Shown here: in pieces, positions 48,331 through 59,836 of the stretch
How positions within the stretch are numbered: position 1 is the stretch's first letter
Layout of the letters: each line of letters starts with the position of its first letter
Source of the DNA: Pyramidobacter sp. C12-8
GTDB taxonomy: Bacteria; Synergistota; Synergistia; Synergistales; Dethiosulfovibrionaceae
Assembly (NCBI RefSeq): GCF_002007215.1
Contig: NZ_MUHX01000009.1
Coordinates: forward strand, 1-64,000
Direction of reading: 5' to 3'
DNA length: 64,000 nt
The notes under the pieces: generated by a model
The model's database searches: none
What the model was told of the DNA's origin: nothing
The model's input: the letters and a program-made list of their open reading frames with translations, nothing else
Made by a program: the position numbers and the translations under genes

Positions 48331-48668
48331 TTTGTTTTCTCCTTTTCCCGACGGCGAGATTTTTCCCGCGTGGTCCTCGTGAGATATGGTTCTGTCCGCA
48401 CCGCGAACGCGGCTTACGCCGGATCTTCATGCCAAAACGGCTCCCGCCGCTATTATGCCATAAGATCTCGAGCGAAGCCATTGCGGTTCGAGAAAGAGAA
48501 CGCTTTCTCCGGACAAATCTCAGTTTATCAAAACTTCAGTTTTGTGAAAGTCATTAAATAATATAGAAGTTCATCTTGACAGCGTCCCAAGGCAATGATA
48601 ATATCGCTTCAGTTTTCATCGAGTGATGAATAATAGTTTATTCGTGCATCGTATTGAGGTGAAAAAAT
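48331..48668. other. Divergent intergenic region before argH
   Basis: The 338-base gap separates the minus-strand dehydrogenase from argH. It has no gene. The argH promoter lies at 48576-48604. I see no clear minus-strand promoter. Confidence 0.6.
48576..48604 (+). promoter_or_regulatory. Promoter of the argH-deacetylase operon
   Basis: TTGACA (48576-48581), an exact 17-base spacer and TAATAT (48599-48604) match the sigma-70 consensus. The start of argH is about 65 bases downstream, with GAGGTG as ribosome-binding site. This is one of the strongest promoter matches in the window. Confidence 0.8.
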
Positions 48669-49991
48669 ATGAATTTATGGGGAGGGCGCTTTCAAGGCGC
48701 CGAAGACGAGCTGATGAAGGCCTTCGACAATTCGCTGCCGCTGGGCAAGCGTTACTGGAAGGAAGACATCGAAGGCAGCCTCGCGCACGCGGCTATGCTC
48801 GGCGCCTGCGGGATCATCACGAAGGAAGACGCCGAGGCGATCCGGAAGGGGCTGCAGGGGATCATGGGCGACATCGAAAGCGGCGCGCTCGTGATCGGCG
48901 ACGAGGGGTACGAGGACATTCACAGCTTTGTGGAGCTGAATTTGACGAAGCGCATCGGCGAGGCGGGCAAAAAGCTCCACACGGCGCGCAGCCGCAACGA
49001 CCAGGTGGCCGTGGATTCGAAGCTCTTCGCCAAAAACGCCGCCGCGCGGGTGGAGGAGAAGCTGGACAAACTGTGCGGCGCGCTCAAAGCTACGGCCGAC
49101 GCCAATCCCTGGCTGATGCCGGGCTACACGCACCTGCAGCGCGCGCAGGCCGTCACCTTCAAACACACGCTGGCGGCCTTCGAGCGCATGTTCCAGCGCG
49201 ACCGCAAGCGCCTGCGCAACGCCGTGGAGATCATGATGGAAGACTGTCCGCTGGGCTGCGGCGCGCTGGCGGGGACCACGCATCCCATCGACCGCGGCAT
49301 GACCGCCGCGGCGCTGGGGTTCCAAAAGCCCTGCGACAATTTCCTCGACGGCGTCAGCGACCGCGATTATTTCTGCGAGCTGCTCGGCGTCTTCGCGATC
49401 GTCCTCATGCACCTCAGCCGCCTGAGCGAATCGATCATCCTCTGGTGTTCGCAGGAGTTCCGCTTCGTCACGCTCAGCGACGCCTATTCCACGGGCAGCA
49501 GCATCATGCCCCAGAAGAAGAACCCCGACAGCGCCGAACTGATCCGCGGCAGCGCGGGGCTGGTCTACGGCTCGCTGATGGCGATGCTGACGGAGATGAA
49601 GGGGCTGCCGCTGGCCTACAACAAGGACATGCAGCTCGACAAGCGGGCCTTTCTGCCGGCGCTGGACGACACGCTGATGTGCCTCGAGATCATGAGCGGC
49701 CTCGTCGCCACGATGACCGTCCACCCCGAGGCCATGAAAAAAGCGCTTCACGACGGTTTTCTCAACGCCACCGAGCTGGCCGACTACCTCGTCAAACGCG
49801 GCGTGCCCTTCCGCGACGCGCATGCCGTCGTCGGCGCGGCGGTGCTGCTGTGCGAGAAAAAAGGCTGCGCGATCGAGGACCTGCCGCTGGAGGAGCTGCA
49901 AAAACTCAGCCCCGCGATCGGCGCGGACGTGTACGGCCAGCTGGATTACGAAAACACGATCAAACTGGGCGTCAAGAGTCAAATGCTATGA
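48669..49991 (+). CDS. argH: Argininosuccinate lyase-family protein
   Basis: The 440-residue product matches ArgH: MNLWGGRF start, HTARSRNDQVA, the GYTHLQRAQ segment and the signature SSIMPQKKNPDS. ArgH cleaves argininosuccinate to arginine and fumarate; other members of the superfamily split aspartase-type C-N bonds. No other arginine biosynthetic gene is near, and it leads an operon with a racemase, an amino-acid importer and deacetylases, so a catabolic C-N lyase is a real alternative. The stop overlaps the next gene by four bases. Confidence 0.88.
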   Translation: MNLWGGRFQGAEDELMKAFDNSLPLGKRYWKEDIEGSLAHAAMLGACGIITKEDAEAIRKGLQGIMGDIESGALVIGDEGYEDIHSFVELNLTKRIGEAGKKLHTARSRNDQVAVDSKLFAKNAAARVEEKLDKLCGALKATADANPWLMPGYTHLQRAQAVTFKHTLAAFERMFQRDRKRLRNAVEIMMEDCPLGCGALAGTTHPIDRGMTAAALGFQKPCDNFLDGVSDRDYFCELLGVFAIVLMHLSRLSESIILWCSQEFRFVTLSDAYSTGSSIMPQKKNPDSAELIRGSAGLVYGSLMAMLTEMKGLPLAYNKDMQLDKRAFLPALDDTLMCLEIMSGLVATMTVHPEAMKKALHDGFLNATELADYLVKRGVPFRDAHAVVGAAVLLCEKKGCAIEDLPLEELQKLSPAIGADVYGQLDYENTIKLGVKSQML

Positions 49992-50722
49992 AGATCTGCG
50001 TCGTCAATCCCGACAGCGGCCTCGACGCGGCGGGTCTGAAACTGAGGGTCGAGCTGCTGCGCGCCTTTGCGCGCCCCGATACGGAAATCGTCATGGTCTG
50101 CCCGCGCAAGAACAATCTCTGCGTCGATTCGTGCCTCGACGCGGCGCTGGACGCGCCGGAGATCGCGGAGATGGCGCTGCGGGCGCAAGCCGGCGGCGCC
50201 GACGCGGTGTGCCTGTACTGTTTCAGCGATCCCGGCTTCGACGCCTGCCGGGAACTGCTCCGTGTCCCCGTCGTCGTCGGCGCGCAGGCCACGGTGCTGC
50301 TGGCCAGCCAGCTGGCCCTCAGCTTTTCGGTGCTGACCACGTCGGCGCGGCGGATCCCGCAGAAAAAAGCCTTTCTCCGCGCGCTGGGCGCCGATCCCGT
50401 CAGGATCGCGAGCGTGCGCGGCGTCGAACTGCCGCCGGGCGCCTCGCGGGAACGGAGCGAAATCATTGAAATTCTCGAGGCGGGCGGACGGCTGTGCGTC
50501 GAAGAAGACGGCGCCGGCGCCGTGATCCTCGGCTGTCTCAGCTTCGCCGGCATGGGCGCGGAGCTGACGGAGCGGCTCGGCGTGCCGGTGATCGACCCCG
50601 CCGCCGCGCTGATCGCCACGGCCGAATCTTTGGTCGTTCAGGGACTCAGCCACAGCAAGCGGAGCTGGCCCGAGCCGCCGGCGGCGCGACGCTTCTGGGG
50701 CGCGGGGACCATCGAAAACTGA
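49988..50722 (+). CDS. Asp/Glu/hydantoin racemase-family protein
   Basis: The 244-residue product starts MKICVVNPDSG and has cysteine-containing motifs VCLYCFSDPG and AVILGCLSFAGMG, which sit where the two catalytic cysteines of aspartate, glutamate or hydantoin racemases lie. It is of the hydantoin-racemase size. It overlaps argH by four bases (ATGA), so the two enzymes are probably made together. Confidence 0.85.
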   Translation: MKICVVNPDSGLDAAGLKLRVELLRAFARPDTEIVMVCPRKNNLCVDSCLDAALDAPEIAEMALRAQAGGADAVCLYCFSDPGFDACRELLRVPVVVGAQATVLLASQLALSFSVLTTSARRIPQKKAFLRALGADPVRIASVRGVELPPGASRERSEIIEILEAGGRLCVEEDGAGAVILGCLSFAGMGAELTERLGVPVIDPAAALIATAESLVVQGLSHSKRSWPEPPAARRFWGAGTIEN

Positions 50723-50771: not shown

Positions 50772-52280
50772 ATGAATTTCAACGTCAAAAAAATTGCCGC
50801 CGGCGTTGCGGCGGTCATGCTGTGCGCCGTATCGGCCTGTGCGGCCAAGCCGCTCGAAGGGCAAAAGCTGAAGATGGCCGTCAGCCCCACGTTCCCGCCT
50901 TTCGAGTTCGAGCAGCTCGACGAGCAGGGCAATGCCCGCATCGTCGGCTACGACATCGACATGGTGGACGCGATCGCCGCGGAGCTCGGCTTCACCTACG
51001 AGCTGGTGCACACCAACTTCAAGGGATTGATGGGGGAGCTGGCCAGTCACCGCGTCGACTTCGTCGTCTCCGGCATGTCGCCCACCGAGGAGCGCAAAAA
51101 GACCGTCGATTTCTCCGTGCCCTACTATTATTGCCAGACTTCAATCATCCAGCACAAGGGAACCAACATCAAGACCGTGGCGGACCTGAAGGGCAAAAAG
51201 ATCGCCGCCTCCTTCGGCACTCAGTACGCCGACTTCGCCGAAGCGGCGGGCGCCGTCGTCGCCGCGATGGACAGCAGCACATACAGCATGCAGGAACTCC
51301 TGGCCGGCCGCGCCGACGGCGTGGTACAGGACGCCGCCTCCGCTTCCATCCGCGTCAAGCAGCATCCCGAGCTCGAGTACTTCGTGCTGCCGCAGGACGA
51401 ACTCGACAAGGTGCAGGGCGGCAACGTCTCCGACTGTTTCGCCGCCGTGTTCCCCAAGGGCTCGGAACTGGAACCGCTGTTCACCGAACAGATCGAAAAG
51501 ATGCAGGCCGACGGCACCATGAAGGCCATTTACGAGAAGTGGATCGGCCCCTGGCCCTACGACGCCAAGCCGCTCCGGGGCAAGCACTACAAGCTGGCGA
51601 TCAACGCCACCTTCGCGCCGTTCGAGTTCGCCCAGGTGAACGACACGGGCGAGAGCGTCATCACCGGTTTCGACATCGACGTGCTCGACGCGATCGCCGC
51701 GGCGCTCGGCTTCACCTACGAGATCAAGGACATGAACTTCTCCGGCCTGATCGGCGAGCTGCACAGCGGCCGCGCCGACTTCGTCATCTCCGGCCTGTCG
51801 GACACGGAGGAGCGCCGCAAGAGCGTCGATTTCTCCGTTCCCTATTATTTCTGCAAGACCGCCATCATCTCGCCGGCCGCCGCGCCGGTGAAGACCATGG
51901 CGGAGATGAAGGGCAAAAAGATCGCCACCGTGTTCGGCACCGAGTACGCCAAGGTGGTCGAGGCCTCCGGTTCCGTTCCCACGCTGCTCGACAACAGCAC
52001 CATGGTCACTCAGGAGCTGCTGAACGGCCGCGTCGACGGCGCCGTCATGGACGCCTCGCAGGCCAAGACCAAGTGCGAGCAGAACGAGGGTTACGTGTAC
52101 CACGTCATCCCCAACGAAGAGCTCGAAAGCGCCCATTACGTTTCCGGTGCGTATTCCATCGCCTTCCAGAAAGGTTCCGGGCTGATCCCCCTGTTCAACG
52201 AACAGATCGGGAAGATGTTCGCCAGCGGCCGGATGAACGAGCTGATCGTCAAATGGATGGGCGAGGAGTTCGTCAAGTAA
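50772..52280 (+). CDS. Amino-acid ABC binding protein with two tandem domains
   Basis: The 502-residue product has a signal peptide (MNFNVKKIAAGVAAVMLCAVSACAA) and then two family 3 solute-binding domains in tandem, about residues 28-265 and 270-502. The halves are clearly related: TFPPFEFEQLDEQG against TFAPFEFAQVNDTG, DFVVSGMSPTEERKKTVDFS against DFVISGLSDTEERRKSVDFS. Most such proteins have one domain. GAGGAGGA precedes ATG 50772. It should feed the permease and ATPase downstream. Confidence 0.9.
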   Translation: MNFNVKKIAAGVAAVMLCAVSACAAKPLEGQKLKMAVSPTFPPFEFEQLDEQGNARIVGYDIDMVDAIAAELGFTYELVHTNFKGLMGELASHRVDFVVSGMSPTEERKKTVDFSVPYYYCQTSIIQHKGTNIKTVADLKGKKIAASFGTQYADFAEAAGAVVAAMDSSTYSMQELLAGRADGVVQDAASASIRVKQHPELEYFVLPQDELDKVQGGNVSDCFAAVFPKGSELEPLFTEQIEKMQADGTMKAIYEKWIGPWPYDAKPLRGKHYKLAINATFAPFEFAQVNDTGESVITGFDIDVLDAIAAALGFTYEIKDMNFSGLIGELHSGRADFVISGLSDTEERRKSVDFSVPYYFCKTAIISPAAAPVKTMAEMKGKKIATVFGTEYAKVVEASGSVPTLLDNSTMVTQELLNGRVDGAVMDASQAKTKCEQNEGYVYHVIPNEELESAHYVSGAYSIAFQKGSGLIPLFNEQIGKMFASGRMNELIVKWMGEEFVK

Positions 52281-52340: not shown

Positions 52341-52404
52341 CTGTGCGACGGGCGCGCCGCGCGTCGCCGCGGCGGCTTTGCGAAACGCCGCAGGAAGGAA
52401 GAAC

Positions 52405-53178
52405 ATGAGAAAATCGCTTTTCGGCCGCAAAAAAGCGCCGCCGCTGCTGGCCCTCGCGGCCGTGCTGGCTCTGGCGGGGCTGGCCTGGGCCGCGCCGGCC
52501 CCGGCGCGGCGGTTTGCGCTGCATTTCGAACGCATCTGGCCCTATTACAAAGTCTTTTACCGCGGCATGATCAATTCGCTCGAGGTGACCTTCATGTCCG
52601 TGATCATGGGCTCGGTCTGCGGCACCGTGCTGGCGCTGCTCAAAGTCTCGCGCCTCGGGCCGCTGTCGTGGTTCGCCACGGCCTACACCTCGGTGTTCCG
52701 CGGCACGCCGCTGATGGTGCAGTTGTTCCTCGTTTATTTCGCCACGCCGCAGCTCTTCGATTATCAGATCCCGGCCTTCAACGCCGTGGTGCTGACCTTC
52801 GGGCTCAACTCCGCCGCCTACGTGTCCGAGATCCTGCGCGGCGGCATCCAGTCCATCGACGTCGGCCAGCGCGAGGCCGCCATGGCCCTGGGCGTGCCCT
52901 ACCGCGCCATGATGTTCGACATCGTCATCCCTCAGGCGCTGCGCACCGTGCTGCCGTCGCTGGTCAACGAGCTCATCGCCCTGCTCAAGGACACCTCCAT
53001 CGTCGCCACCATCGGCATGCTCGACATGATGCGCGCCGCCCAGACCGCCATGAACTCCACCTATCTGGCCTTCGAGCCGTTCATCGTCGTCGCCGGCATG
53101 TACTACGTGCTCGTGATGATCTTCACGGCCGTCGCCTCGCGCCTGGAGAGGAGGCTGCACAAAAGTGATCGAAATTAA
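52405..53178 (+). CDS. Amino-acid ABC permease (HisM/GlnP type)
   Basis: The 257-residue product has an N-terminal signal-like helix and about five further helices, with the family motif [18 protein letters not shown] and the coupling region [26 protein letters not shown]. One permease suffices as a homodimer. ATG 52405 follows GCAGGAAGGAAG. It overlaps the ATPase gene by 14 bases. Confidence 0.9.
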
Positions 53179-53887
53179 GGATCTGAAAAAACAATTCGGC
53201 TCCCTCGAGGTGCTTCGGGGCGTCAACCTGAAGATCGACGACGGCGAAGTGGTGTCCGTCATCGGCCCCTCCGGCTCGGGCAAGTCGACGCTGCTGCGCT
53301 GCATCAACCTGCTCGAAACGCCCACGTCGGGACAGGTCGTGATCGACGGGGTGGACATCACCCAAAGAGGCGTGGACATTCAGAAAGTGCGCGAGAACGT
53401 GGGCATGGTGTTTCAGCACTTCAACCTGTTCCAGAACAAGAACGTGCTCCAGAACATGATCTACGCGCCCATGAAAGTGCGCGGCCTTCCCGAGGCGCAG
53501 GCCGTCGAAAAGGCCATGCGGCTGCTCGAACGCGTCGGTCTGGCCGACAAGGCCCGCGCCTATCCTTCCATGCTCTCCGGCGGCCAGCAGCAGCGCGTCG
53601 CCATCGCCCGCGCCCTGGCCATGGAGCCGCGCACGCTGCTTTTCGACGAGCCCTCCTCGGCGCTCGATCCGGAGATGGTCAAGGAAGTGCTCGACGTGAT
53701 TCGCAGCCTGGTTTCCACGGGCATCACCATGGCGATCGTCACCCACGAGATGGGCTTCGCCCGCGAGGCTTCCGACCGCGTCTGCTTCGTCGACGAGGGC
53801 GTGATCGCCGAAGACGCCGCGCCGTCTGAGTTCTTCTCGTCGCCGAAGTCGGCGCGCGCTCGGCAGTTTTTGGAAAAAGTGCTTTAG
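53165..53887 (+). CDS. Amino-acid ABC ATP-binding protein (GlnQ type)
   Basis: The 240-residue product has Walker [10 protein letters not shown], the Q-loop region [18 protein letters not shown], the signature [15 protein letters not shown] and Walker [12 protein letters not shown]. The start is GTG 53165, inside the permease 3' end after GAGAGGAGG. It completes a polar amino-acid importer. Confidence 0.93.
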
Positions 53888-53911: not shown

Positions 53912-54781
53912 ATGGAAGACCGGCTGCATTGGAAAAACGGCGCCCGCTGCGCCGTGATGCTGACGTTCGATCTCGACGGGGACACCACGTGGAAGAACGG
54001 CAACGCCCACTACGAAGGCGGCGACAAGTTCCTGAAAGCCCGCTCGGTAGGGCTTTACGGCCCCAACCGCGGCGCTCACTCCATCCTCGACCTGCTGAAG
54101 AAATACGGCGTCCCCGGCACCTTCTTCGTGCCCGGCAAGGTCGCCGAGGACAACCCCGACCTGATCCGCCGCATCGACGCCGAAGGGCACGAGATCGGCC
54201 AGCACGGCTACACGCACGAAATGTTCTTCAACTACGGCCGCGAGCGGCAGATCGAGATCGTCGAAAAGTGCCAGAACATCTTCTGCGACCTGATCGGCAA
54301 GCCCGCCCGCGGCTTTCGCACCCCGTCCGGCGACTGGTCGCTGGACACGCCGCGCCTGCTGTACGAGCGCGGCGTCGACTACAGCAGCTCGATGCGCGGC
54401 AACGACCGCCCCTATCACACCGCGATCGACGGCGAAAAGACCGACTTCATCGAGATCCCTACGCGCTGGGAACTGGACGATTACGTGGCCACCGCCTACA
54501 ATTATTTCCCCGCCGAACCCGACGGGCAGGACCGCATCTCCGGCTACGACCTGGTCTACGACAATTTCTCGCGCGAGTTCGACGGCTATTACGAATACGG
54601 CCTGTGCTTCGTCAGCATGATCCATCCGCAGGTCACCGGCACTCCCGGCCGCCTGCGCATCCTCGAAAAGCTGATCCGGCATATCAAGGAGCGAGGCGAC
54701 GTCTGGTTCGCGCGCGGCGGCGAAGTGGCGCGGTGGTACCGCGAGCATTACGACCGCGAGGAGGTCCTGAAAAATGCCTGA
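53912..54781 (+). CDS. Polysaccharide deacetylase-family protein, PgdA/PuuE type
   Basis: The 289-residue product has a NodB-like barrel close to HpPgdA and PuuE: TFDLDGD with D20 and D22, then HGYTH with H98 and H102, the expected metal site, and a later RGFRTPSGDW. This family includes peptidoglycan deacetylases, allantoinases and cyclic imidases. No signal peptide is seen, so a cytoplasmic substrate is likely. It lies in an amino-acid import operon, favouring a small cyclic amide. Confidence 0.82.
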   Translation: MEDRLHWKNGARCAVMLTFDLDGDTTWKNGNAHYEGGDKFLKARSVGLYGPNRGAHSILDLLKKYGVPGTFFVPGKVAEDNPDLIRRIDAEGHEIGQHGYTHEMFFNYGRERQIEIVEKCQNIFCDLIGKPARGFRTPSGDWSLDTPRLLYERGVDYSSSMRGNDRPYHTAIDGEKTDFIEIPTRWELDDYVATAYNYFPAEPDGQDRISGYDLVYDNFSREFDGYYEYGLCFVSMIHPQVTGTPGRLRILEKLIRHIKERGDVWFARGGEVARWYREHYDREEVLKNA

Positions 54782-55610
54782 AATCGAGTGGAAGGACGGC
54801 GCCCGCTGCGCCGCCATGATCACCGTCAACCTCGACGCCGAAAACTTCTGGCTGGCCGTCGACCCCGACGTCTCGAAACGCCCGAAGACTCTGTCCATGG
54901 GGCAGTACGGCATGGACCGCGGCCTGCCGCGCCTGCTGGAGCTTCTTGACGATTTGGATATCAAGGCCACGTTTTTCGTGCCCGGTTCGACCGCCGCGGC
55001 CTACGCCGAAAAAGTGAAAGACGTCGCCGCCCGCGGCCACGAGATCGCCCTGCGCGGCTACGAACTGCTCAACTGGGGCCTGCTGCCCGCCGAACAGGCC
55101 GCGGCCGACATGGAAAAAGGCGCCGCTGTCCTCAAAAACGTCGTCGGCGCGCAACCCAGAGGCTACCGCGCTCCCATCGCCGAGTTCACCCTCGACACCC
55201 TGCGCGCCGCCCATGCCAACGGCGCCGTGTATTCCAGCAGCCTCAGCAGCGACGACCGCCCCTTCTGGTTCGACCTGGGAAACGGCGAAAAACTGCTGGA
55301 GATCCCCGTTCACTGGGCGCTTTACGACCTGCCGTACTTCGCCTTCAACTACCACCCGCCCATGCCGAAGGGACAGGGGCGGATCGCCAACTCCGCTCAG
55401 GTCTTCAATAACTTCCGCGAGGAGTTCCTCGGCTGCGCCGAGCGCGGCCTCTGTTACGTGCTCCAGCTCGACCCGCAGACCGCCTGCACTCCCGGCCGCA
55501 TGCCGCTGCTGCGCGGACTGCTGACCGAGATCAAGGAGAGCGGCGCGGCCTGGCTCGCCACCGGCGGCAAGATGTACGATTACTGGTCCGCCGTTTATCC
55601 CGCGAAGTAG
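54774..55610 (+). CDS. Degenerate deacetylase-family paralog
   Basis: The 278-residue product is a clear paralog of the previous gene (KDGARCAAMITVNLDAENFW, FFVPGSTAAAYAEK, PRGYRAPIAEFTLDT). The metal site is changed: the first catalytic aspartate is N19, and the two histidines are R94 and L98, while D21 is retained. It may be an inactive partner or act with another metal-free chemistry. The start overlaps the preceding gene by eight bases, so the two proteins are probably made in equal amounts. Confidence 0.8.
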   Translation: MPEIEWKDGARCAAMITVNLDAENFWLAVDPDVSKRPKTLSMGQYGMDRGLPRLLELLDDLDIKATFFVPGSTAAAYAEKVKDVAARGHEIALRGYELLNWGLLPAEQAAADMEKGAAVLKNVVGAQPRGYRAPIAEFTLDTLRAAHANGAVYSSSLSSDDRPFWFDLGNGEKLLEIPVHWALYDLPYFAFNYHPPMPKGQGRIANSAQVFNNFREEFLGCAERGLCYVLQLDPQTACTPGRMPLLRGLLTEIKESGAAWLATGGKMYDYWSAVYPAK

Positions 55611-55720: not shown

Positions 55721-55750
55721 TTGTCAAAAAACGCCCGCCTGTGTTATAAT
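55721..55750 (+). promoter_or_regulatory. Promoter of tRNA-Ser
   Basis: TTGTCA (55721-55726), an 18-base spacer and TATAAT (55745-55750) form a good sigma-70 promoter. The tRNA begins 13 bases after the -10 box. Confidence 0.7.
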
Positions 55751-55763
55751 GCCCTTTGTCCGC

Positions 55764-55851
55764 GGAGGGGTGTCCGAGTGGTCGATGGTGCTTGCTTGGA
55801 AGGCATGTGTACCTTAGGGTACCGGAGGTTCGAATCCTCTCCCCTCCGCCA
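55764..55851 (+). tRNA. tRNA-Ser(GGA)
   Basis: The acceptor GGAGGGG (55764-55770) pairs with CCCCTCC (55841-55847), followed by G and an encoded CCA ending at 55851. The anticodon loop TTGGAAG reads GGA, so it decodes UCC and UCU. The variable arm GTACC-TTAG-GGTAC is long, as in class II serine tRNAs, and the T loop is TTCGAAT. One anticodon-stem pair (T-T) appears mismatched. Confidence 0.95.
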
Positions 55852-56819: not shown

Positions 56820-57278
56820 ATGGGTTCGAATACGAAAGATTACTTGACGCGGATTGCCATGCAGGAAAAACAATTCGATGCTCTGTATCGGGAAACAAGC
56901 GCGAAATTTGATCTGCCGGATTGTGCGATGTGGGTGTTGTATTTTCTCGTTTCTTCCGATGGGCCGATAACACAGCAGGATCTGATCGAGAAGATGATGT
57001 TTCCCAAGCAGACCATCAATTCTGCTGTGATGAAGCTTTCCAAAGAGGGGCTTGTCCAACTTCAAATCGTCCCCGGCACCCGTAATCGGAAGACGATCTT
57101 TTTGACGGACACCGGAGCGAAGCTGGCACAAGCGACCGTAGAGCGGATGCGGCATGCGGAACTCCGGGCCGTTGAGGCCATGGGAGCCGAGCGCATGGAA
57201 CAGTTTGTCTCGCTCCACAACAGTTTTTATTCTCACTTGCAACGAGCGTTTCAAGACGAAGGTTTGACGGATGCCTGA
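56820..57278 (+). CDS. MarR-family transcriptional regulator
   Basis: The 152-residue product has the winged helix of MarR proteins (ITQQDLIEKMMFPKQTINSA, VMKLSKEGLVQLQIVPGTRN) and the helical dimerisation ends. MarR proteins respond to small aromatic compounds and usually repress themselves and linked efflux or resistance genes. A strong palindromic operator overlaps its promoter. The UvrA-like ABC gene lies about 290 bases on, separated by a decayed gene. Confidence 0.9.
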   Translation: MGSNTKDYLTRIAMQEKQFDALYRETSAKFDLPDCAMWVLYFLVSSDGPITQQDLIEKMMFPKQTINSAVMKLSKEGLVQLQIVPGTRNRKTIFLTDTGAKLAQATVERMRHAELRAVEAMGAERMEQFVSLHNSFYSHLQRAFQDEGLTDA

Positions 57279-57551
57279 CTTGAGATCATGGAATCTTTGG
57301 CGCGGCTGCCAAAAATACAGCGAGGACTGGGAAAACCGTTATATGCATTATCCGGATAAGGTCAGAGGCGTCCCGGAGCGTGCGGCTGTCATTCAAGGGA
57401 TAATCCGCCCAAGAGGAACTGGCGGGGGCAGTATAAGATCCCATCCGGCTCTTGCCTGCGTGTCAATATGACTTCTGGTGCATTTCTTGAAGAGGCGGAC
57501 GAGTGGCGCGTCGAAATGTGGAACGTGATGGGAACGGGAAAGCGTTTATGA
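57271..57551 (+). pseudogene. Decayed DUF5131 (phage Gp37/Gp68-like) gene
   Basis: One frame reads SWNLWRGCQKYSEDWENRYM, close to the N-terminus of DUF5131 proteins (W.PWHGC.K.SEGC.NCYM), but the second cysteine pair is lost. A second frame from 57432 reads YKIPSGSCLRVNMTSGAFLE, matching the next conserved block. The two are out of frame and no C-terminal domain follows. The gene is a fragment squeezed between MarR and the UvrA-like gene. Confidence 0.65.
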
Positions 57552-57571
57552 GCGACGAAGGAGATCGTGCG

Positions 57572-59836
57572 ATGAACGACAATATTGAAATCCGCGGCGC
57601 GTCCGAGAACAACTTGAAGCACATCGACGTGACCATACCGAAGGGGAAGCTGGTCGTCTTTGCCGGCGTCTCCGGCTCGGGCAAGAGTTCGCTGGCTTTT
57701 GATACGGTGGCTGTGGAATCCGAACGCGAATGGCAGCAGAGCTATCCGCTGTTTCTGCGCAACAAGATGCCGCACTATGACCGCCCAAAGGTGGACGAGA
57801 TCCGCAATCTGACGCCCGCCATCGTAGTGGATCAGCGCGCCATCGGCGCGAACACCCGTTCCACGGTCGGCACGGCGGTGGACGTCGCGCCGCTTTTGCG
57901 TCTGCTGTTTTCCCGCGTGGGCGAGCCGAGTGCCGGCGGCAGTATGGCGTACTCCTTCAATCATCCCGCCGGGATGTGCCCGGACTGCACCGGCGTCGGA
58001 GAACGGTTGGAGCTGATCGAGGAATCCATGTTCGACCCGGATAAGACTCTTGCGGAAGGAGCCATTCTGTTCAGCCAGTTTTCCGCCGGATGGCAGACGC
58101 ACCTGTATCAGAACAATCCTCTGCTCGATCCCGATAAAAAGCTCCGGGATTTTACATCCGAGGAATGGGACACGCTGAAATACGGATCGAAAGAACCGGT
58201 CAAAGTGGGAATCAAGTCCAACAATACCGGACGTGTGGATATGGTGGAATATGAGGGCGTTTTCCCCCGTTTTGAGCGTGTCTACATGAAGCGGGACATC
58301 ACCAAGCTGAAAAAAGGCTTGCAGGACGAGATCATGTCTCATGTGAGGCGCGGGGCATGTCGCACCTGCGGGGGGACGGGACTGAATCCGAAGGCTCTGG
58401 CCTCAAGGATCAACGGCAAAAACATCGTGGAGTGCATGGACATGACCGCCGCCGATCTGCTGCCGTTCCTCGAAACGATCGGCGACCCGCGCGGCGGCTC
58501 GCTTGCCAAGCGGATCGCCGAATATCTGGAACGTATGATCGGCGTCGGTATCGGCTATTTGTCCCTTTCGCGCAAGACCGAAACTCTCTCCGGCGGCGAG
58601 GCCCAGCGGTTAAAAATGGTTCGCAATCTCGGCGGATATCTCAACAATATCACTTACATTTTCGACGAACCCACGGCCGGCCTGCATCCGGCGGATGCGG
58701 AGCGGATCGGCAGGATGCTCTGCGACCTGCGGGACAAGCACAACAACGTGCTTGTGGTGGAACACAGCCGTCAAATGCTTGCGCTTGCGGACCACATCAT
58801 CGAAATGGGGCCGGGGGCCGGAATCGGAGGCGGCAGTCTCGTCTTTTCGGGCAGCCTTGAAGAACTGCAAAAAGCGGGGACGCTCACGGCGCAGGCGATC
58901 CGTCAGAAGGTCGCAGTCAACAGAGAGCCGCTGCCGTGGACGGAAGGCTACGAGATCAGAGACGCCCATTGCCACAATTTGAAGCACGTGAACGTGACCG
59001 TTCCGAAGGGCGTTCTCACCGCCGTCACCGGCGTGGCGGGAAGCGGCAAAAGCTCGCTGATGCGCCGTGAGTTCCCTAAAGCATACCCGGATGCCGTCAT
59101 CATCGACCAAAAGCCCATCGGCACATCCATCCGCTCGACGCCCGCCACTTATACCGGCGTGATGGACGAGATCAGAAAGGTCTTCGCCAAGGAGAACGGC
59201 GTCGGCGCGGGCTGGTTCTCCTTCAATTCCGAGGGCGGCTGCCCTATCTGCAAGGGCACCGGGCAGATCACCTACGATATGGCCTTCGCCGAGCCGTTGG
59301 CCGTCCCCTGCGAGGAATGCGGCGGACATCGCTACAATCCCACGGCGCTGTCTTACTGTTACAAAGGAATGAACATCGAAGAAGCGATGAGGCTGACTAT
59401 CGGGCAGGCGTATGATTTCTTCGACAATGCCAAGATCCGCAAGCTCCTGCGGAGCATGATCGACGTGGGGCTGGATTATCTCACGCTGGGACAGCCCACG
59501 AGCACGCTGTCCGGCGGAGAAGTGCAGCGGGTCAAGCTGGCCAGCGAGCTGCACAGGCAGGGACAGATCTATGTGCTGGACGAACCAAGCAGCGGCTTAC
59601 ACGCTAGCGACATTGAAAAGCTGCTGGCGCTGCTCCGCGGGCTGGTGGGGAGCGGGAACACCGTGGTCATGGTCGAGCATCGCATGGAACTGATCGCACA
59701 GGCGGACTGGGTCATCGACATGGGGCCGGACGGCGGCTCCGGCGGGGGAACAGTGGTATTCGAGGGGGTCCCCGAACAGCTGTTGAAATGTTCGGGCTCC
59801 AAAACCGCAAAGTATATGCTTGAAGCGCTCCGATAG
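57572..59836 (+). CDS. UvrA-like ABC ATPase, short form
   Basis: The 754-residue product is homologous to UvrA with two ABC domains: FAGVSGSGKSSLAFDT near residue 34, signatures LSGGEAQRLKMV and LSGGEVQRVKLA, and zinc motifs CPDCTGVG/CRTCGGTG and CPICKGTG/CEECGG. UvrA is about 940 residues; the missing part is in the DNA-damage-sensing insertion. Such short paralogs, often near MarR genes, are linked to resistance to DNA-binding drugs. ATG 57572 follows AAGGAG; an upstream frame start at 57503 overlaps the pseudogene. Confidence 0.88.
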   Translation: MNDNIEIRGASENNLKHIDVTIPKGKLVVFAGVSGSGKSSLAFDTVAVESEREWQQSYPLFLRNKMPHYDRPKVDEIRNLTPAIVVDQRAIGANTRSTVGTAVDVAPLLRLLFSRVGEPSAGGSMAYSFNHPAGMCPDCTGVGERLELIEESMFDPDKTLAEGAILFSQFSAGWQTHLYQNNPLLDPDKKLRDFTSEEWDTLKYGSKEPVKVGIKSNNTGRVDMVEYEGVFPRFERVYMKRDITKLKKGLQDEIMSHVRRGACRTCGGTGLNPKALASRINGKNIVECMDMTAADLLPFLETIGDPRGGSLAKRIAEYLERMIGVGIGYLSLSRKTETLSGGEAQRLKMVRNLGGYLNNITYIFDEPTAGLHPADAERIGRMLCDLRDKHNNVLVVEHSRQMLALADHIIEMGPGAGIGGGSLVFSGSLEELQKAGTLTAQAIRQKVAVNREPLPWTEGYEIRDAHCHNLKHVNVTVPKGVLTAVTGVAGSGKSSLMRREFPKAYPDAVIIDQKPIGTSIRSTPATYTGVMDEIRKVFAKENGVGAGWFSFNSEGGCPICKGTGQITYDMAFAEPLAVPCEECGGHRYNPTALSYCYKGMNIEEAMRLTIGQAYDFFDNAKIRKLLRSMIDVGLDYLTLGQPTSTLSGGEVQRVKLASELHRQGQIYVLDEPSSGLHASDIEKLLALLRGLVGSGNTVVMVEHRMELIAQADWVIDMGPDGGSGGGTVVFEGVPEQLLKCSGSKTAKYMLEALR

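Follow-up and report, generated by a model that had tools for sequence, protein, structure and literature searches.

We analysed a stretch of 64,000 nucleotides from Pyramidobacter sp. C12-8 (contig NZ_MUHX01000009.1; hereafter the window), in which two adjacent genes for NodB-fold proteins, here called A and B, close a same-strand run comprising argH, a racemase gene and the genes for the substrate-binding protein, permease and ATPase of an ABC transporter. The features of the run are as follows:

48576..48604, + strand: promoter-like site before argH, TTGACA-17-TAATAT, 10/12 (consensus match only)
48669..49991, + strand: argH, argininosuccinate lyase (TIGR00838, 513 bits against a cut-off of 279.5)
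49988..50722, + strand: Asp/Glu/hydantoin racemase family protein (PF01177, E 3e-31)
50772..52280, + strand: amino-acid ABC transporter substrate-binding protein, with two tandem binding domains in one chain (family matches in two stretches)
52378..53178, + strand: amino-acid ABC transporter permease (family matches)
53165..53887, + strand: amino-acid ABC transporter ATPase (family matches)
53912..54781, + strand: A, catalytic-type NodB-fold hydrolase of 289 aa, with D20, D22, H98, H102, R136, D190 and H238 intact
54760..54764, + strand: GGAGG, likely ribosome-binding site of B, within the 3' end of A (read from sequence)
54774..54781, + strand: overlap of the A and B reading frames, 8 bases
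54774..55610, + strand: B, degenerate paralog of 278 aa, with N19, D21, R94, L98, R132, D185 and D233

The start codon of B (ATG, 54774) lies upstream of the stop codon of A (TGA, 54779-54781), which falls inside B, and the ORF positions bear out the extents of both frames and the eight-base overlap given in the initial annotation. The two proteins share 38% identity, and both are members of the NodB fold, with PF01522 Pfam scores of 84.9 bits for A and 66.4 bits for B against a cut-off of 23.1. Directly downstream of B lies a tRNA-Ser (GGA) gene (55764-55851, + strand) that has a separate strong promoter-like site (55721-55750). Further along, a MarR-type regulator (56820-57278, Pfam match) precedes a 777-aa protein (57503-59836, + strand) that by eye resembles an excinuclease-UvrA-type ATPase.

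Residue checks of the active sites confirmed the initial reading that A carries D20, D22, H98 and H102 and that B carries N19, D21, R94 and L98 at the matching positions. That reading had overlooked a further loss in B, in which the motif-5 histidine (H238 in A) is replaced by D233, so that the seven-site patterns are DDHHRDH in A and NDRLRDD in B. The motif-5 histidine of CE4 enzymes is catalytic. Motif 1 of this family consists of two aspartates, one catalytic and one metal-binding, and motif 2 of two metal-binding histidines (PMC10967932). The residue set of the CE4/NodB metal-dependent hydrolases (motif-1 Asp pair, motif-2 His pair and motif-5 His) is therefore complete in A and incomplete in B. 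By analogy, D20 would be the base and D22 the metal ligand in this D-x-D variant of motif 1; if these roles were reversed, one metal ligand would be missing from every B described below. Identical lesions are present in the B of a conspecific genome (G118) and of two other species of the genus (G116 and G117), whose B proteins are 94% identical to that of the window, which rules out sequencing error or chance as their source.

We collected 48 A-B loci of the clade in Synergistota and Bacillota, with the order A-B in all 48. A phylum search placed the pairs in four separate Synergistota lineages, and an alignment-query search of GTDB genomes yielded 62 loci, with B-type carriers mostly in Clostridia and A directly upstream at every B-type locus (at L055, A is truncated by the contig end). 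When A was the query, in Clostridia and in two orders, 13 genomes gave a strong match, and in all 13 a second homologue adjoins A; nine of these genomes had not been found through B and four had. At loci with clear start sites, the A-B junctions range from an overlap to about 25 bases, and B is a full-length frame at the pair loci. No single-ORF A-B fusion was seen among the loci, the sole two-domain frame being a PuuE record. Carriers of the pair include the gut anaerobes Anaerobutyricum hallii, Emergencia timonensis and Blautia luti.

Comparison of the 48 pairs revealed that D20, D22, H98, H102 and H238 are kept in every A, with one A having Glu at D190, while every B has Asn at the D20 position and Asp or Glu at the H238 position. 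The D22/H98/H102 metal triad is retained (D-H-H) in eight of the 48 B proteins, and its state changes at least six times on the B tree. The constant lesion thus lies in the catalytic columns, and the metal ligands seem to have been lost later and repeatedly. The description of B as a paralog with a lost metal site accordingly holds for the protein of the window and fails as a hallmark of the family, whose constant features are Asn at D20 and Asp or Glu at H238. The columns fixed differently in the two clades (at 85% or more in both) are D20/N19, H238/D233 and a mild Gly/Ala difference beside motif 1, with no others; within the B clade, N19 and Q231 are invariant and D233 is 97% conserved. The B set, in which the triad is kept or lost and the two catalytic residues are always replaced, offers a natural series for the order in which catalysis is lost. 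One divergent pair (L121, genome G840) was excluded from the 48-pair count; its A-like protein (HDHHVDH) has His at D20 and Val at R136, and its B-like protein (MDHHRDT) has Met at D20 and Thr at H238. Four clostridial loci (L141, L147, L148 and L149) carry tandem homologue pairs in which both copies are intact and which occupy a separate region of the tree; they counter the notion that tandem duplication always implies decay and serve as a natural control for the degenerate pairs.

In a tree built after removal of the motif columns from the alignment, B forms one clade (SH-aLRT 99) and A another (97), and a third group holds single-gene or other homologues with intact sites, including the Mycobacterium smegmatis protein 3rxz. 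Trees of A and of B for 33 pairs have 17 of 30 splits in common, against a mean of 0.18 and a maximum of 3 in 2000 label shuffles, and the mirror correlation is r 0.85. The four Synergistota lineages sit among Bacillota alike in both trees, each with four phylum-label changes for four Synergistota rows, and A and B of the window both group with the Bacillota loci L031 and L035. Because the two trees place the same Synergistota lineages among Bacillota, the simplest reading is that the pair has moved between lineages as one block. The tree length is 16.2 for B and 11.1 for A, so that B evolves about 1.4 times faster. Against two sister species, dN/dS is 0.155 and 0.172 for B and 0.09 and 0.16 for A, and B is under purifying selection.

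Eight proteobacterial loci, on plasmids of Burkholderia, Caballeronia, Paraburkholderia, Ensifer, Rhizobium, Ochrobactrum and Paracoccus, have an intact A beside a B that is degenerate in other ways. The betaproteobacterial B has the pattern DNSCRDH, and the alphaproteobacterial B has Leu, Ile or Gly at D20 and has lost the second His. The proteobacterial A proteins fall in clade A (SH-aLRT 97), while the support for grouping the B proteins with clade B is only 7 and 13. Some related proteobacterial argH/ABC/MmgE operons run on a single intact homologue with no B, which indicates that B is dispensable in some such pathways. It appears that a lineage of homotetrameric hydrolases gave rise, by duplication, to a catalytic and a degenerate subunit, which have remained together across Synergistota, Clostridia and Proteobacteria.

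Analysis of the gene neighbourhoods covered about 46 pair loci, some cut by contig ends and with two genomes counted twice; on this basis the recurring neighbours are AGCS-type amino-acid carriers (24 loci), argininosuccinate-lyase-like proteins (20), Asp/Glu racemase-like proteins (17), malic enzyme (13), ABC ATPases (13) and sigma-54 activators (12). The proteobacterial operons add MmgE/PrpD, agmatinase, arginase and ornithine cyclodeaminase; MmgE/PrpD is the family of iminodisuccinate epimerase. The argH protein of the window contains the motifs SRNDQ, GSSIMPQKKNP and YNKD..Q..K and is the sole lyase over the cut-off in its genome, with argG on another contig; a single enzyme may thus be shared by arginine synthesis and the A/B pathway. 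A biosynthetic argH lying here by mere coincidence was rejected, since about 20 pair loci, and the proteobacterial operons as well, have an argH. In Sinorhizobium meliloti, a tolC mutant has lowered expression of the argH2-ABC genes SMb21094-97 as well as of nitrogen genes (PMC2912261); SMb21094-97 presumably form part of an operon of the type described here. Beside a divergent A-B subgroup lies a conserved protein of about 440 aa (L063:6565-7890, L065:6814-8127 and L058:7986-9323), the L063 copy of which gave no Pfam or NCBIfam match.

These neighbours bear on the substrate. Since argH, a racemase and amino-acid uptake genes surround the pair, they suggest that A/B is a cytosolic cyclic-amide hydrolase and not a polysaccharide deacetylase; the deacetylase label of the initial annotation thus probably names the wrong substrate, and the polysaccharide deacetylase annotation of such proteins is probably misleading. 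The operon points instead to uptake of an amino-acid derivative and its degradation, with argininosuccinate lyase as the last step, and a salvage route that ends in a fumarate-releasing C-N lyase fits the neighbourhood. Argininosuccinate lactams are one candidate substrate, offered as a guess. Nothing bearing directly on the pathway or on NodB heteromers came out of the literature searches.

AlphaFold2 models of A (pLDDT 85) and B (pLDDT 88) matched the same solved structures, A with Z scores of 32.8 to 3rxz and 30.8 to HpPgdA, and B with 35.1 to 3rxz, 32.8 to HpPgdA and 31.6 to PuuE. Overall, the models match 3rxz, HpPgdA and PuuE-type proteins with Z of 30-35, compared with about 20 for CE4 polysaccharide deacetylases. 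Residues 181-210 of B are among its best conserved and yet contain the least confident part of the model (183-187, below 50), and the matching segment of A is also weak (203-209); in these models, the weakness at B 181-210 is as expected for a loop ordered by a partner or ligand. HpPgdA is described as a C4 homotetramer in the crystal and a tetramer in solution, with no signal peptide, with no turnover of typical peptidoglycan deacetylase substrates and with suggested binding of a small molecule (PMC3084791, PMC12283931). PuuE is likewise a C4 homotetramer, and its substrate is a small cyclic imide (PMC3084791, PMC12283931). An assignment of A or B as PuuE allantoinase was rejected, as their TIGR03212 scores (77.8 and 63.1 bits) fall short of the cut-off of 424.6. 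The PuuE-type protein at locus L105 reads NEHWYDH, and its pattern of N/E/H/W plus the motif-5 His is found in neither A nor B.

The best reading, which we regard as moderately probable, is that B is a non-catalytic partner in a heteromer with A. From their residues, A is probably active and B inactive, and B, as a conserved paralog that lacks catalytic residues and is linked to an intact A, has the sequence attributes of the pseudoenzyme in such a pair. As the two genes lie side by side in distant bacteria and were apparently transferred as a unit, B is probably a non-catalytic partner and no dead leftover. Because HpPgdA and PuuE, the nearest relatives whose structures are well described, are C4 homotetramers, a mixed A/B ring is a natural hypothesis. 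A and B would then together make up a cytosolic hetero-oligomeric amidohydrolase, probably a mixed tetramer, that belongs to the HpPgdA/PuuE branch of the NodB fold. Catalysis would fall to A, in which the motif-1 Asp pair, both motif-2 His and the motif-5 His are all present, and B would be a non-catalytic subunit, long retained, that lends A stability, influences the form of its pocket or controls its activity. In the proposed salvage pathway, the amino-acid-type transporter would import a compound, the racemase or an epimerase would correct its stereochemistry, A/B would open the ring of this compound, most likely a small cyclic amide, imide or lactam, and argininosuccinate lyase would cleave the product to fumarate and an amine, perhaps arginine. 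The earlier proposal of an inactive partner that shapes a heteromer is thus supported in part: it gains from the strict linkage of the genes, from the mirrored trees, from the apparent transfer of the two together and from the purifying selection that acts on B, and the homotetrameric relatives make a mixed ring plausible, but missing ligands alone are no proof that B is dead, since PuuE is active and metal-independent.

Some observations pull away from the heteromer. Two independent enzymes acting in one pathway would also account for the co-linkage and the mirrored trees. As the B-less proteobacterial operons indicate, some pathways of this kind do without B, and the particular Asn and Asp that are fixed in B seem to be the product of selection and not of decay, a hint that B has a role of its own. 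B might accordingly be an active enzyme in its own right, whose rebuilt site (N19, E23, D185, Q231 and D233) works without metal and which acts on another stereoisomer or the next intermediate. PuuE, described as a non-metal-dependent enzyme (PMC10967932), arose from metal-dependent relatives and gives a precedent, its type at L105 has the D-to-N change and the second-His loss of B, and the near-invariance of N19, Q231 and D233 points the same way. We nevertheless consider a second enzyme unlikely: PuuE keeps the motif-5 His that is always absent from B, the Asp/His pair on which the known mechanism relies is retained in no B of the clade, and the proteobacterial B proteins are degenerate at quite different residues, still beside an intact A. 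A re-specified B, whose fixed Asn and Asp would join Gln231 and Glu23 in a new site that needs no metal, or in a half-site to which A supplies the rest, is put forward just as tentatively. If it were true, an A/B ring would present two kinds of alternating active or binding sites to one substrate, a division of labour for which we found no description for the NodB fold in the literature searched.

The conservation of pocket residues in B despite the replaced catalytic ones, and the constant adjacency of the genes, would also suit a ligand-binding sensor or pathway regulator that makes no stable complex with A. This is improbable, as a Pfam scan gave no extra signalling domain in B, a regulator gene (sigma-54 activator, GntR-like or LysR) already lies near many clusters, and strict 1:1 co-inheritance and the tetrameric relatives favour direct A-B contact. 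The faster evolution of B is what a functionless, decaying duplicate would show; such decay, or lesions due to sequencing errors, is nonetheless barely credible, because B is full-length at the pair loci with dN/dS of about 0.16, its specific replacements are fixed in all 48 pairs and recur in other genomes of the genus, and its retention across phyla refutes decay in substance.

A non-catalytic B beside A would fall among active/pseudoenzyme pairs, which are known elsewhere, with none found described for the NodB/CE4 fold in the literature searched. HpPgdA (HP0310, PDB 3qbu/4ly4), a tetrameric NodB-fold protein with a small buried site and no signal peptide, is comparable to the pair, and the Asp/His set is kept in A; HpPgdA differs as a homomer from one gene, whose tetramer is held by a 25-residue arm (161-185) where A and B have only a short loop, and no degenerate partner of it was found in the literature searched. 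PuuE (PDB 3cl6) and its relatives 1z7a and 3s6o match A and B with Z of 29.5-31.6, and PuuE shares with B the D-to-N change and the loss of the second His, but it is a homomer and keeps the motif-5 His lost in B. The closest solved structure to both proteins is 3rxz, a putative polysaccharide deacetylase (30-31% identity, Z 32.8-35.1) with all catalytic residues intact and four chains deposited, which, unlike A and B, groups with single-gene homologues in the tree and for which the literature searched gave no tested function. BA3943 (7bkf) and 4M1B of Bacillus anthracis are CE4 proteins of the NodB fold that have been described as pseudoenzymes, but they are distant from B (Z about 20), and 4M1B has been grouped with MurNAc deacetylases (PMC10967932). 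In trypanosomatid AdoMetDC/prozyme and deoxyhypusine synthase, an active enzyme and a catalytically dead paralog make a working hetero-oligomer (PMC5201418, PMC3663545); these proteins are eukaryotic and of unrelated folds, and they provide a precedent for the principle only.
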